Virus record (IMG/VR): IMGVR_UViG_3300047557_003039
Span: 1-41,025 of that record
DNA: 41,025 bases
Strand: one strand, 5' to 3'
Source: a virus
A program made the position numbers and the translations under genes. Shown one piece after another: positions 6,699-15,582 of this stretch (its first letter is position 1; every line of letters starts with the position of its first letter). The notes beneath the pieces were generated by a model. It worked only from the letters and a program-made list of their open reading frames with translations. It did no database searches and was not told the origin of the DNA.

Positions 6699-7760
6699 TC
6701 AAAGAGCATTACCTCTCGGAAGCACTTCCTCTGGGAACACAAACTGTTCATGAGGTTGATCTACTGGAGCCATCCATGCTCTAAGTCCCTCATTAAGAAG
6801 GATATTCTTCGTATAGAAAGTTTCAAATTCAGGATCCTCCGCAGCACGAATCTCCTGAGAAACAAAATCGTAAGCACGAAGATTAAGGGCAAGACCAATA
6901 ATACCGATACTGGAGGTCCAGAGACCCATAACAGGCACAAACAACATAAAGAAATGAAGCCAACGCTTGTTACTAAAAGCAATACCAAAAATCTGAGACC
7001 AGAATCTATTAGCAGTAACCATAGAATAGGTTTCTTCCTCTTGTGTTGGTTCAAATGCTTTGAAAGTGTTTGCTTGATCACTATCTTCAAATAGAGTGTT
7101 TTCTACAGTTGCTCCATGAATTGCACAGAGCAATGCTCCTCCCAGTATACCAGCAACACCCATCATATGGAAGGGATTGAGTGTCCAGTTGTGGAAACCT
7201 TGTAGGAAGAGCAGGAAACGGAAGATTGCTGCCACTCCAAAAGAAGGTGCGAAGAACCAACTGGATTGTCCCAGTGGATACATCAAGAATACAGAAACAA
7301 ATACTGCGATAGGACCAGAGAATGCAATTGCATTATAAGGACGGATACCTACCAGACGAGCAATCTCAAACTGGCGAAGCATGAATCCAATCAAACTAAA
7401 TGCCCCGTGGAGTGCCACAAAAGTCCAGAGTCCCCCAAGTTGGAACCACCTGACGATATCCCCTTGAGCCTCAGGACCCCAGAGCAGAAGAAGAGAATGA
7501 CCCATAGCATCTGCTGGAGTACTAACTGCTGCAGTAAGAAAGTTTGCACCCTCAAGATAGGAACTTGCCAACCCGTGAGTATACCAACTCGTAACGAAAG
7601 TCGTCCCAGTAAGCCAACCACCAAGAGCAAGGTAAGCAGTGGGAAAAAGAAGAAGTCCAGACCAGCCAACAAAAACGAAACGGTCTCTCTTAAGCCAGTC
7701 ATCGAGTACATCAAACCATCCCCTCTGTGAAATTGGTTGTGAAAGTGTTGAAGAAGTCAT
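6699..7760 (-). CDS. psbD: Photosystem II D2 protein
   Basis: A 353-residue D2 reaction-centre protein, full length. It shows the family's five-helix layout, the quinone and iron ligand region around [19 protein letters not shown], and the C-terminal segment [17 protein letters not shown]. In the thylakoid it pairs with D1 to bind the reaction-centre chlorophylls, pheophytins and plastoquinone QA. A phage copy keeps photosystem II supplied while host expression falls. The ATG has a strong AGGAGG site, very close upstream. It has its own promoter (7782-7815) and terminator, so it can be expressed independently of psbA. Confidence 0.98.
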
Positions 7761-8003: not shown

Positions 8004-9086
8004 TCAACCGATGGCAGGTGCGGTGAGAGCAATAGGAGTGCTTTCAGCAGCAGCAAGATCCAGAGGGAAATTGTGAGCATTACGTTCATGCATCACTTCC
8101 ATACCAAGACCAGCGCGGTTTAGAACGTCTGCCCAGGTGTTAATAACTTTACCTTCAGAACTCATGATGGACTGGTTGAAGTTGAAACCATTCAAGTTGA
8201 ACGCCATGGTGCTAACACCAAGAGCAGTGAACCAGATACCAACAACAGGCCAAGCAGCAAGGAAGAAGTGCAGCGAACGCGAGTTATTGAACGATGCGTA
8301 CTGGAAGATCAGACGACCGAAGTAACCGTGAGCAGCTACGATGTTGTATGTTTCTTCTTCTTGTCCGAACTTGTAACCGTAGTTTTGGGATTCGTTTTCT
8401 GTCGTCTCACGAACGAGACTAGAGGTGACGAGAGATCCGTGCATAGCAGAGAAAAGAGAACCACCGAAGACACCAGCAACTCCCAGCATGTGGAAAGGAT
8501 GCATAAGAATGTTGTGTTCTGCCTGGAAAACAAGCATGTAGTTGAAAGTTCCCGAAATCCCAAGAGGCATTGCGTCACTGAAGGATCCTTGACCAAAGGG
8601 ATAGACCAGGAACACTGCAGAAGCAGCAGCAACGGGTGCAGAGTAGGCAACACAAATCCAAGGACGCATACCAAGTCGGTAAGAAAGTTCCCATTCGCGA
8701 CCCATGTAGGCATAGATACCAATCAGAAAGTGGAAGACGACCAGTTGGAAAGGTCCACCGTTATATAGCCACTCATCTAGGGAAGCAGCTTCCCAAATTG
8801 GATAAAAGTGCAGTCCAATTGCATTGGACGAAGGAATTACAGCACCAGAGATGATGTTGTTTCCATACATGAGTGAACCAGCAACGGGTTCACGGATACC
8901 ATCAATGTCCACAGGGGGAGCACCGACGAATGCGATGATGAAACAAGTTGTAGCAGCAAGCAGGCAAGGAATCATCAAGACTCCGAACCACCCGACATAA
9001 AGACGGTTATCGGTTGAAGTTACCCAGTTGCAAAACTGTTCCCAAATATTCGATTGTGATTGTTGACGTGAAATTGTAGCAGTCAT
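8004..9086 (-). CDS. psbA: Photosystem II D1 protein
   Basis: A 360-residue D1 protein, intact and without an intron. It shows [49 protein letters not shown], the SLVRETTE loop and the C-terminal [13 protein letters not shown], where the short tail is normally removed. D1 carries the quinone QB site and ligands of the Mn cluster and is the fast-turnover subunit of photosystem II. Residue 131 is Glu. The N-terminus is one residue longer than standard D1, so this corresponds to Glu130, the high-light isoform state. It has its own promoter, a leader of about 165 nt and a terminator. Confidence 0.98.
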
Positions 9087-9677: not shown

Positions 9678-9919
9678 AAAATCTAAAACTAATTGACAAA
9701 TTAATTGTCACTATTGTAATTAGTACTCTTGGATATGTTGGCGTTACTTTTTTCAATTGCAACTTTATGATTCCAGGTTCAATGGAAAGAGCAGACGCAT
9801 TAGGAGGATTAGTAAATCCCCCACCCTTAGATTGCAAAGAATCTGAGAGCAGGGGATATAATGCTTTGTTTACTTTGTTTACTGCCCTGTTGGGTCTAAA
9901 AGCGAAGATGGATGATTAA
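9674..9919 (+). CDS. Small membrane protein, holin/spanin-like layout (81 aa)
   Basis: The ATG at 9674 overlaps the upstream TGA (ATGA), so I prefer it to an upstream in-frame ATG at 9650. The protein has one clear membrane span (about residues 9-28), a middle region with two Cys and a PPPL turn, and a second moderately hydrophobic segment (about residues 68-80: NALFTLFTALLGL). Two-span small proteins next to lysozymes are often holins. Here the lysozyme frame is convergent, and the two genes share stop-codon bases (9916-9919). Lysis function is an inference from shape and position. Confidence 0.65.
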   Translation: MKNLKLIDKLIVTIVISTLGYVGVTFFNCNFMIPGSMERADALGGLVNPPPLDCKESESRGYNALFTLFTALLGLKAKMDD

Positions 9920-10398
9920 GAAACCCAGAGTTTACCTTCAGCAATACGTCTTCTAAGTAATCCCGCCTCTACACTGCTACCAGGATTGCGATACAACTTC
10001 AGGGTTTCTGGAATTGCTTTCCAATTTTTCTCACGTAAATTGCGAGAGATAGTATTGAAATTGCTTGAATTGTAAAACCCAGCACCAAGATTGTAAGCAA
10101 AGGATAGAAGTGCTCCGCGTTGCTTGTCATTCATTTCGCCCCAATAGGGAATTTTTTGTAGTGATGGAAGGAATCTTTGTTCAAGATCAAACAGTAATAA
10201 CTTATCTGCATACTCTTGGGTAATCTTTCTCCTCATTTTGAATGGCTGACCATTAAAATCTTTAGTACTACCCCAACCTATCGTAATAGGAAGTCCACCC
10301 GTTAATGGATCGGGATAAGAATTTAAGTGACATCCCTCAAACTCTTTAATTAAATCAACACCACATTGAGGAATTTTTTGTTGTGATGTTGATTCTAC
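9916..10398 (-). CDS. Phage lysozyme (GH24-type) domain, probably expressed by -1 frameshift from the peptidase ORF
   Basis: This 160-codon frame carries a complete muramidase domain: LIKEFEG with the catalytic Glu, SYPDP, TGGLPITIGWGST (the Asp/Thr part of the active site), and then the helical half ending LSFAYNLGAG and LRRRIAEG. It would cleave peptidoglycan during lysis or entry. No ATG, GTG or TTG lies upstream of the catalytic region; the first ATG (10236) comes after it and would give a dead 106-residue fragment. A TGA closes the frame 9 nt upstream of GTA (10398). The domain joins the peptidase frame at an A AAA AAG slip site. A missing A in the homopolymer is the alternative. Confidence 0.85.
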   Translation of the reverse strand, partial: VESTSQQKIPQCGVDLIKEFEGCHLNSYPDPLTGGLPITIGWGSTKDFNGQPFKMRRKITQEYADKLLLFDLEQRFLPSLQKIPYWGEMNDKQRGALLSFAYNLGAGFYNSSNFNTISRNLREKNWKAIPETLKLYRNPGSSVEAGLLRRRIAEGKLWVS

Positions 10399-10404
10399 TT
10401 TTTT
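10354..10404 (-). promoter_or_regulatory. Predicted -1 ribosomal frameshift signal
   Basis: On the minus strand the slippery heptamer A AAA AAG (10404-10398) is in the peptidase frame and is followed by its stop TAG. Four nt later a 12-bp stem begins (10393-10382 with 10365-10354, one G-U pair, 16-nt loop). A purine-rich GGGGAAG lies 12 nt upstream (10423-10417). This is the same heptamer and layout as E. coli dnaX. The shifted frame continues as lysozyme. Confidence 0.75.
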
Positions 10405-11093
10405 GTTTCAAAAATTCTTCCCCATCCATCATTACCACCAGGAACCCATCTACGAGATAAATCAGATCTCTTATAAACAGCACCTTTACCGTTGGTAACT
10501 GCGCCAGTATAACCATCGTTGAGTGAACCATAAGGATCGTTAACAACATAATCTCCTGCTGGCGTCTTACCAATGACTACAACCATGTGCCCACCAGTAG
10601 GTGCAGATAAAGGACCGCGATGAAGAATCCCGATAACGACAGGTCTCCCAGCGGCAAGCTCACGATCAAGATCAGCAAAAGTAAGATTGTAACTAAAGTG
10701 TGACTCAATACCATAAGAGGCAAGAACTTTGGTCTGAACCAAATGATCAGTAGTGTCACCAATTTGGAAAACTTTTTGTACATAGGCGTCGTCGCCCTTG
10801 GGTCCTTTTAATGTACCAGGCTTAAAATACTCAAGGCACATTGCACAAGCAGATGAGTTGCAAGTTCTATTTGCATCTCTGTAGTTATCTGTTTGTGGAT
10901 AAAAAGGAACTGGTAAAATATTTGCTTGAGGTTTGTCTGATTTGGTTCTATAAATTCTCACCCAATTAGATTCATCTTGCATTAAATCACTTGCCTTTGC
11001 AAGTAAATCCTTTTCAAATTGCTCTACTGCAGCAACATGCTTTGGATTTTTCTCATCAAAGTGTTTAAAGAAGTTGTGAAGATCTATAAGCAT
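10395..11093 (-). CDS. C39-like cysteine peptidase (N-terminal part of a peptidase-lysozyme)
   Basis: This 232-residue ORF has the papain-like C39_2 pattern: PQTDN and TCNSSACAMCLEYF (about residues 67-90, with the candidate catalytic Cys), LAAGRPVVIGI, GGHMVVVIG (catalytic His, about residue 168) and YVVNDPYG (Asn/Asp). It would cleave a peptide substrate, here most likely cell-wall crosslinks because of the linked lysozyme. About 65 N-terminal residues form a helical region. The ATG at 11093 has an AAGG site and a late promoter just upstream. Its stop sits inside the frameshift signal, so both a 232-aa and a 392-aa product are predicted. Confidence 0.82.
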   Translation of the reverse strand: MLIDLHNFFKHFDEKNPKHVAAVEQFEKDLLAKASDLMQDESNWVRIYRTKSDKPQANILPVPFYPQTDNYRDANRTCNSSACAMCLEYFKPGTLKGPKGDDAYVQKVFQIGDTTDHLVQTKVLASYGIESHFSYNLTFADLDRELAAGRPVVIGILHRGPLSAPTGGHMVVVIGKTPAGDYVVNDPYGSLNDGYTGAVTNGKGAVYKRSDLSRRWVPGGNDGWGRIFETKK

Positions 11094-14115: not shown

Positions 14116-15582
14116 TCAGAACTTGAACGTGGTCTGGATTACGCCACCCCAATTGGAGGAGTTGCCAGCAAGACGTTGATTGTCACTACCGTAGATGATA
14201 GCAGGAGTGACGCTGATGTTATCGGACACTTGATACTTGTAGAAGATTTCAAGAAGAGTTGACTTCTCAAGATTTTCTCCGGTAGGTGCCTGACCGATAG
14301 CAACACCAGCAGAGTTACCATCGACAAACACATCATCCCAAGTTAGACCGGCAAACCAGGACTGACTGTTGGTAGCATCACTTTGAGTGCCACTTACAGT
14401 GTTCCAACCATAACCTGCTGAGATAGAAGGTGCCCAACCAGATTGAGTTGGTTCCCAGTATGCGTTCACGGCATAACCGTTAGAGGTTTGACCTGGAACC
14501 AGAGCACCTGATGCACCGTTCAGACCGTTATAGGTACGGACACGGGTGCCTTCAGTACCATAACGATAACCGAAAGCAGCACCCCAGTTAGTGCCACGAT
14601 AACCAACTTGCGCCAAGGTATTAAGAGCACCAGACTTGTCAAACTCACCAGTAGAACTATCGGCGCCATTTTGTGCCACATAGTTTACACCAGCTACAAG
14701 ACCTTTCTTGCCATACTGAACACCAAAACCAGAACCAGTTGCCTTGTTATACACACCAGGAGCGCCTGCTACTTGGAAGAAGTCAAGAATGTTCGACTTG
14801 TAAGCAGTAGGCAACCAAGCCATCTCAGTATTACGAACCAGAGCACCAGCAGTCAGGGTTGCTTTGTTATTGAAAGCAGGGAACTGGTAGAACAGACGGT
14901 CGATAACTACATTGTTACCAACTTCACTGGAAGTGTTGTCTGCTTTATCCAGTTTGAAGATTGAAGAACTAGAACCGAAAGGATTGCTGCTGAAGTTAGC
15001 AGAACGCAGACGAGTGCGAAGCAAATCCTTACCGGTGAATGAAGTATCCAGGTTCAAACGCAGATCGTAGTTGAATGCAGTGCGAGTTGAATCACCATCT
15101 TTGGTTAGGTAATCATCAACACCACCAATTACGAAGTTTGCTTCGCCACGTAGTTTAGTAGTGGTGGAGAACTGTTGTGCTTCAAGTGTAGTAACTTGTG
15201 CTTCCAGTTTATCTACACGACCACGAAGAACAGCAAGTTCTTGTGCAAATTCTGCCTGAAGACGCTTCAGTTCATCGGTAACTTCGGTCACGCGATCAAG
15301 GCAAGCATTCAGAAGTGCTGCTGCCTCATAACGGGTCATTGCTTTACCACCACCAAAGGTGCCGTTGGGATAACCAGCAACGCAACCATAACGCTCTACA
15401 AGGTTGCCGAGTGCCTGATATGCCCAATCGGTTGGACGAACATCAGAAAATTGTGTGACACTAGTAACCTGCTCGGAGGAATATTGGTTGACTGCTGCCA
15501 TGTTAAGATCTGCAGCATTCGCAACAGCAGGAGCAAACATTCCCAGAGCAACAGGTGCAAGCATCAGTTGTTTGAGTTTCAT
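14116..15582 (-). CDS. Cyanobacterial-type outer-membrane porin (SLH + OprB/Som family)
   Basis: A 488-residue porin. A signal peptide (about residues 1-23, ending ANA) is followed by an SLH domain (about 45-95: FSDVRPTDWAYQALGNL, GCVAGYPNG, MTRYEAAALLNACLDR), a coiled-coil linker with heptads (about 97-137) and a long beta-barrel of alternating residues ending in the terminal Phe (TTFKF). This is the layout of cyanobacterial Som-type porins, where SLH holds peptidoglycan and the barrel passes small solutes. A complete host-like porin in a phage suggests altered nutrient uptake or receptor masking. It has an early and a late promoter, and its own terminator. Confidence 0.92.
   Translation of the reverse strand: MKLKQLMLAPVALGMFAPAVANAADLNMAAVNQYSSEQVTSVTQFSDVRPTDWAYQALGNLVERYGCVAGYPNGTFGGGKAMTRYEAAALLNACLDRVTEVTDELKRLQAEFAQELAVLRGRVDKLEAQVTTLEAQQFSTTTKLRGEANFVIGGVDDYLTKDGDSTRTAFNYDLRLNLDTSFTGKDLLRTRLRSANFSSNPFGSSSSIFKLDKADNTSSEVGNNVVIDRLFYQFPAFNNKATLTAGALVRNTEMAWLPTAYKSNILDFFQVAGAPGVYNKATGSGFGVQYGKKGLVAGVNYVAQNGADSSTGEFDKSGALNTLAQVGYRGTNWGAAFGYRYGTEGTRVRTYNGLNGASGALVPGQTSNGYAVNAYWEPTQSGWAPSISAGYGWNTVSGTQSDATNSQSWFAGLTWDDVFVDGNSAGVAIGQAPTGENLEKSTLLEIFYKYQVSDNISVTPAIIYGSDNQRLAGNSSNWGGVIQTTFKF

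Follow-up and report, generated by a model that had tools for sequence, protein, structure and literature searches.

A predicted programmed -1 frameshift joining a C39-like peptidase to a GH24 lysozyme in cyanomyoviruses

The window analysed here (IMGVR_UViG_3300047557_003039, positions 1 to 41,025; 41,025 nucleotides) carries on its minus strand a gene for a C39-like peptidase followed, in the -1 frame, by a GH24-type phage lysozyme, and this arrangement raises the question of how the lysozyme is translated. Ahead of its active site (EGCHLNSYPDP...ITIGWG), ATG, GTG and TTG are all absent from the lysozyme frame, and the earliest ATG in that frame, at 10236, already lies within the lysozyme domain. 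A preliminary description, made from the sequence alone, had proposed that a programmed -1 frameshift joins the two proteins. Comparison with relatives strongly supports this proposal. In the absence of any expression, reporter or proteomic data, we consider it very likely that a programmed -1 ribosomal frameshift is conserved at this junction among cyanomyoviruses (Kyanoviridae).

The two enzymes and their junction

The 232-aa product of the first open reading frame matched Pfam PF13529 (Peptidase_C39_2, E 2.4e-13) and begins with a helical domain, residues about 1-50, which precedes the C39-like part. Cys78, His169 and Asp186 were unchanged throughout an alignment of 39 peptidase sequences, and an AlphaFold model (pLDDT 85) displayed a fold like that of C39/papain-like enzymes, including a pseudomurein endoisopeptidase. 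With its Cys-His-Asp triad and a papain-like fold, the latter predicted by the model, the first frame meets the criteria for a C39-like peptidase. The frame behind it matched PF00959 (Phage_lysozyme, E 1.6e-21), and the active-site motifs EG..., YPDP and ITIGWG were found in nearly all relatives listed; the domain and its Glu/Asp/Thr active site meet the criteria for a GH24 phage lysozyme. Both genes are under purifying selection, with a lysozyme dN/dS of about 0.14 (128 pairs). A single PHROG profile of 405 positions, family 3617, covers both the peptidase and the lysozyme half. The identification as an endolysin rests on PHROG 'endolysin' labels only, so that a role in lysis, rather than as virion enzymes, is likely but inferred from family names without lysis data.

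The layout of the junction is collected in Table 1. Across the main genes of the window, 12,171 codons in all, an in-phase A AAA AAG occurs a single time, at the peptidase end, which rules out that the heptamer is merely common in these genes. The layout exceeds what chance would produce, since this in-phase copy is the sole one and 62 of 99 distinct loci, counting the window, share the arrangement. Three parts of the preliminary description held at this point: the start-less lysozyme frame with its full GH24 active site, opening only after a TGA; the peptidase frame ending A AAA AAG TAG in the X XXY YYZ phase; and the reading-frame lengths behind a 232-aa peptidase and a 392-aa fusion. That both products are made is inferred, and its terms 'fixed ratio' and 'lysin' likewise remain inferences.

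Table 1. Positions of the junction features in the window
Feature	Position	Strand	Remarks
0-frame peptidase ORF	11093-10395	minus	ATG start, 232 aa, ends GAA ACA AAA AAG TAG
Shine-Dalgarno-like GGGGAAG	10417-10423	minus	ends 12 nt upstream of heptamer
TGA closing the -1 frame upstream	10410-10408	minus	sequence
Slippery heptamer A AAA AAG	10404-10398	minus	in phase with peptidase frame
0-frame stop TAG	10397-10395	minus	immediately behind heptamer; terminates short product
Stem-loop, predicted stimulatory	10395-10382 pairs with 10365-10352	minus	RNAfold, 14 pairs, -16.1 kcal/mol
-1-frame GH24 lysozyme	10398-9919, stop TAA 9918-9916	minus	160 codons plus stop

Elsewhere in the window we observed two photosystem II reaction-centre genes (6699-7760 and 8004-9086), both matching the D1 PHROG, and a PhotoRC-II RNA motif (9219-9124). 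The minus strand also carries a wcaG cis-regulatory RNA motif (Rfam RF01761; 37826-37923), three tRNA genes, Met(CAT), Ile(TAT) and Pro(TGG), between 38872 and 40677, and a 488-aa open reading frame (14116-15582) without a PHROG match at E 1e-5.

Heptamer and lysozyme among relatives

Relatives were gathered by protein, ignoring the junction, and supplemented with isolated phages, giving 99 distinct loci including the window. An in-phase A AAA AAG lay within the last peptidase codons of 62 loci, and in all 62 a -1-frame lysozyme followed immediately; no heptamer was found without one. Among the 37 loci without the heptamer, 35 had no directly following -1-frame lysozyme: it was not found nearby, distant, reversed, fused in the zero frame, or in the -1 frame with its own ATG, the matching domain then starting more than 100 nt away. 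Counted from the lysozyme side, 64 loci have one directly behind the peptidase in the -1 frame, and 62 of these carry the heptamer, all but L054 and S-CAM7. The preliminary description had named split relatives lacking the slippery site as a finding that would refute it; only L054 is without any slippery motif, but it has its own ATG, and in the three S-CAM7 isolates U UUU UUU replaces A AAA AAG. Where no lysozyme follows, the peptidase mostly ends a few codons earlier and lacks the Lys-Lys. On the peptidase tree many changes of state are required, and the pairing of heptamer and lysozyme is borne out by 7 of 8 independent contrasts.

In the reverse direction, we chose 99 distinct loci by the peptidase end plus the heptamer pattern, 94 of them with a recognisable peptidase. 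An open -1-frame lysozyme was found in 90 of these 94, and in all 90 the 0-frame stop lay no more than 9 nt from the heptamer. Three loci, L204, L247 and L265, have the peptidase end and heptamer with no lysozyme found; L204 was rejected as a frameshift locus and not counted, as its zero frame stays open past the heptamer and its -1 frame soon stops. AAAAAAG also occurs within the zero-frame fusion linkers of L203 and ACG-2014f, and the motif alone is therefore no proof of frameshifting.

A referee may ask whether the lysozyme is instead a separate protein, translated on its own because ribosomes reinitiate after termination or use a non-standard start. In favour of this reading, the junction of 12 heptamer-bearing relatives (S-SRM01 and others) also contains an ATG or GTG, where a separate lysozyme start is possible, and eight more loci show an ATGA overlap without the heptamer; separate translation thus probably exists within the family. 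Against it, ATG, GTG and TTG are wholly absent before the lysozyme domain in the window and in 44 of the 90 heptamer-selected loci, an independent start having been a further finding that would have counted against the preliminary proposal. In addition, the heptamer vanishes where another arrangement is used, and initiation needs neither a heptamer nor the covarying stem described below. We regard separate translation as a very unlikely explanation of the window's layout.

Own-ATG lysozymes lie just past the peptidase stop, with an ATGA overlap and no heptamer, in L070, L154, L163, L085, L086 and L060. The N-terminal domain of these L070-group lysozymes is of another kind (IKFIDA...LPHQ...HKEILDEF), and hhalign gave no support (probability 3.9%) for its homology to that of the peptidase.

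A second objection is that the frame change reflects a sequencing or assembly error, with six A recorded for seven, or a decayed lysozyme. The site is indeed a homopolymer run, and one lineage (L152 and L156) does carry seven A, as a fusion. The preliminary description had named raw reads with seven A as a further finding that would refute it. Six A followed by G were found in dozens of independent contigs, and S-PM2 shows the identical A6G-stop layout in both of its sequence records. The lysozyme dN/dS reported above also speaks against decay, and the codon and stem constraints set out next are not expected in an error or a pseudogene, so that this explanation is all but excluded in favour of a genuine frame change.

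Constraint on the RNA at and behind the heptamer

In the 62 loci, the codon before AAA AAG was GCA (34), GTA (23), ACA (4) or GAA (1). Its third base is always A, though the residue varies among Ala, Val, Thr and Glu, and in the same genes only 43, 27, 33 and 64% of the codons for these residues, respectively, end in A. Likewise, the Lys-Lys at the junction is always AAA AAG, a codon choice seen in 5 of 46 such pairs at other positions of these reading frames. A fixed third base and a fixed AAA AAG alongside changing residues point to selection on the RNA, and the site is conserved beyond the requirement of the protein. Since the loci are related, nominal p-values for this constraint are overstated; the residue switches at the site argue for repeated constraint despite that kinship.

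Downstream of the heptamer we found a conserved, covarying stem at short spacing. In the window it begins 4 nt behind the heptamer, where the preliminary description had correctly placed a 12-bp stem (10393-10382 with 10365-10354), and RNAfold extends it to 14 pairs. Where the junction has no start, the 70 nt past the heptamer had a mean folding z of -2.6; the corresponding values were -0.6 and -0.2 for the flanking control regions, and -0.6 where a junction start is present. In the window's group both sides had changed in 6 of the 14 pairs, a number reached in 0 of 500 shuffles, and pairing fell from 95% to at most 49% when the partner was shifted by 1-3 columns. The arms differ in sequence across groups (ATCAACATCACA/TGTGGTGTTGAT; CGCCAACTAA/TTAGTTGGCG; AGCTCTACT/AGTAGAGCT), with the right arm within conserved lysozyme codons and the left arm within the variable linker; when arms were exchanged, the folding energy was -8.2 kcal/mol, compared to -18.0 kcal/mol for a locus's own left and right arms. 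A stem of -12 kcal/mol or lower was present in 57 of the 60 scored pattern-selected loci without a junction start, usually 0-8 nt past the heptamer; scoring omitted 18 of the 90 pattern-selected loci, which could not be anchored. Most heptamer loci with a junction ATG or GTG lack a strong stem.

The upstream GGGGAAG fared differently: its position 12 nt before the heptamer held, but its conservation as a stimulator is not supported in the window's class. The general form GGGGNNG lies 12 nt upstream in 58 of 62 loci and 15 nt in the remainder. It encodes Trp-Gly-Arg, and these codons impose the element; Shine-Dalgarno strength did not differ between loci with and without the heptamer (p 0.13). 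The claim that the junction copies the layout of E. coli dnaX accordingly held only in part, for heptamer and stem. A stronger GGGGGAG was found in 8 of the 12 junction-start heptamer loci compared to 4 of the 50 others, and it is possible that such loci, with their mostly weak stem, combine frameshifting with reinitiation.

In the mechanism that we propose, ribosomes translating the peptidase message would arrive at A AAA AAG and pause at the downstream stem-loop. Some would shift back one base on a single host tRNA-Lys(UUU), bypass the adjacent stop and read on into the lysozyme, so that one message would yield a 232-aa peptidase and a 392-aa peptidase-lysozyme with a common N-terminal domain. 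Slippage in vivo, its ribosomal nature and the ratio of the products are inferred. A_AAA_AAG ranks among the most efficient heptamers in E. coli (PMC4066793), and slippage at the dnaX site has been linked to a sole tRNA-Lys(UUU) as its condition (PMC5009743). In Synechococcus RCC307, the sole tRNA-Lys among 41 tRNAs is UUU; this argument rests on one Synechococcus genome, and the host of the metagenomic contig is not known.

Transcriptional slippage offers a third alternative, in which RNA polymerase adds an A within the six-A run and part of the mRNA reads fused. A run of A does sit at the site, the seven-A DNA of L152 and L156 reads as a fusion, and slippage of this kind is plausible at the run of eight T in S-CAM7. 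Six A are, however, short for polymerase slippage. A G invariably ends the run, in the exact X XXY YYZ phase; the stem, conserved and covarying, is still untranscribed when the polymerase passes the run; and the sole tRNA-Lys speaks for slippage on the ribosome, whereas Thermus, which has two tRNA-Lys, relies on polymerase slippage (PMC5009743). Given the fixed phase of the six-A run, the downstream stem and the single tRNA-Lys(UUU), we prefer ribosomal frameshifting and consider the transcriptional alternative very unlikely.

Natural variants, known systems and implications

Several members of the family attach the lysozyme in other ways. L152 (IMGVR 3300028557_000317) and L156 (3300028114_000252) have seven A and a plain fused reading frame, with the pairing sequences retained in the linker; their seventh A lies in a different phase and reads straight into the same fusion protein, which supports the fusion as a functional product. 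L030 also has a run of seven A, where other heptamer loci have six in fixed phase. In ACG-2014f peptidase and lysozyme form one in-frame frame, and in S-CREM1 they are fused in reversed order; together with L152, these in-frame fusions suggest that a fused enzyme is viable.

In S-CAM7 (L167, L171 and L172, from position 1581) the peptidase ends in eight T with the lysozyme in the -1 frame. Slippage at this U UUU UUU could be ribosomal or transcriptional, and the site may have a stem of its own. The 'lysin' genes of S-PM2 (L002, 1557-1775) and S-CAM7 (L167, 1899-2117) are annotated from an internal codon behind the active site, starts apparently misplaced because the predicted frameshift went unrecognised.

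The lysozymes of DSL-LC02 and DSL-LC03 carry their own copy of the peptidase's N-terminal domain, in separate genes where the duplicated domain lies at L003 1821-1970 and L006 1967-2120. A reasonable reading, which remains an inference, is that the lysozyme may need the shared N-terminal domain for targeting, and that frameshifting would supply this domain plus the peptidase.

The closest known parallel is E. coli dnaX (tau/gamma), which likewise combines A AAA AAG, a downstream stem-loop, a sole tRNA-Lys and two proteins with a common N-terminus. Unlike in dnaX, where the shift makes the short protein, the cyanophage shift would make the long one, and the upstream Shine-Dalgarno stimulator of dnaX is not specifically conserved. 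A long product from the shift, with the short one ending just past the site, corresponds to the 'reversed' dnaX arrangement suggested for Chlorobium and a few other bacteria (PMC5009743). In IS3-family transposases, too, two reading frames are fused by a -1 shift, at heptamers of the A AAA AAG type that are helped by structural stimulators (PMC4066793, PMC5009743), but they belong to mobile elements and are unrelated to the cyanophage enzymes. Phage tail assembly chaperones (gpG/gpGT) and capsid proteins pair a short with a frameshifted long product (PMC5009743), but these are structural or assembly proteins rather than enzymes of a cell-wall-degrading type.

Among endolysins, Lys170, CTP1L and LysP7951 yield two isoforms from one gene (PMC9430671, PMC4777826). 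They do so through in-frame internal starts, giving a common C-terminus, in phages of Gram-positive hosts, whereas the cyanophage isoforms would share their N-terminus, arise from predicted frameshifting and belong to phages of cyanobacteria. The earlier statement that no frameshifted phage endolysin of this type was known to be established held in part: a Lactococcus phage lysin encoded by two overlapping genes (Shearman et al. 1994) is cited by PRFect as a frameshift-containing lysin (PMC10885494), from a different phage and host. The literature that we searched, which left out most subscription papers, contained no description of a frameshifted cyanophage endolysin. The type of mechanism is known; what appears to be new is its occurrence in this protein family and this phage group, together with the breadth of natural variation.

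A bolder reading, on which we find the arguments evenly balanced, is that lysis enzymes of this class are widespread among cyanophages and rely on programmed frameshifting to produce their two-enzyme form. The ratio of one- to two-activity products would be set by the strength of heptamer and stem and tuned between lineages, which would switch among frameshifting, reinitiation, in-frame fusion by a single added A and a duplicated N-terminal domain, in every case so as to join the lysozyme to a common targeting domain.

If frameshifting occurs as we predict, public annotations that give S-PM2 and S-CAM7 a 'lysin' without an active site are wrong, and annotation tools should join the peptidase and lysozyme frames. 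The natural variants (six A, seven A, U8, an own start, no stem) would allow the evolution of frameshift signals to be measured. Programmed frameshifting would here be placed in an enzyme gene, as opposed to the usual structural or transposase genes, and phages of Synechococcus-type cyanobacteria would make a cell-wall lysis enzyme by recoding.
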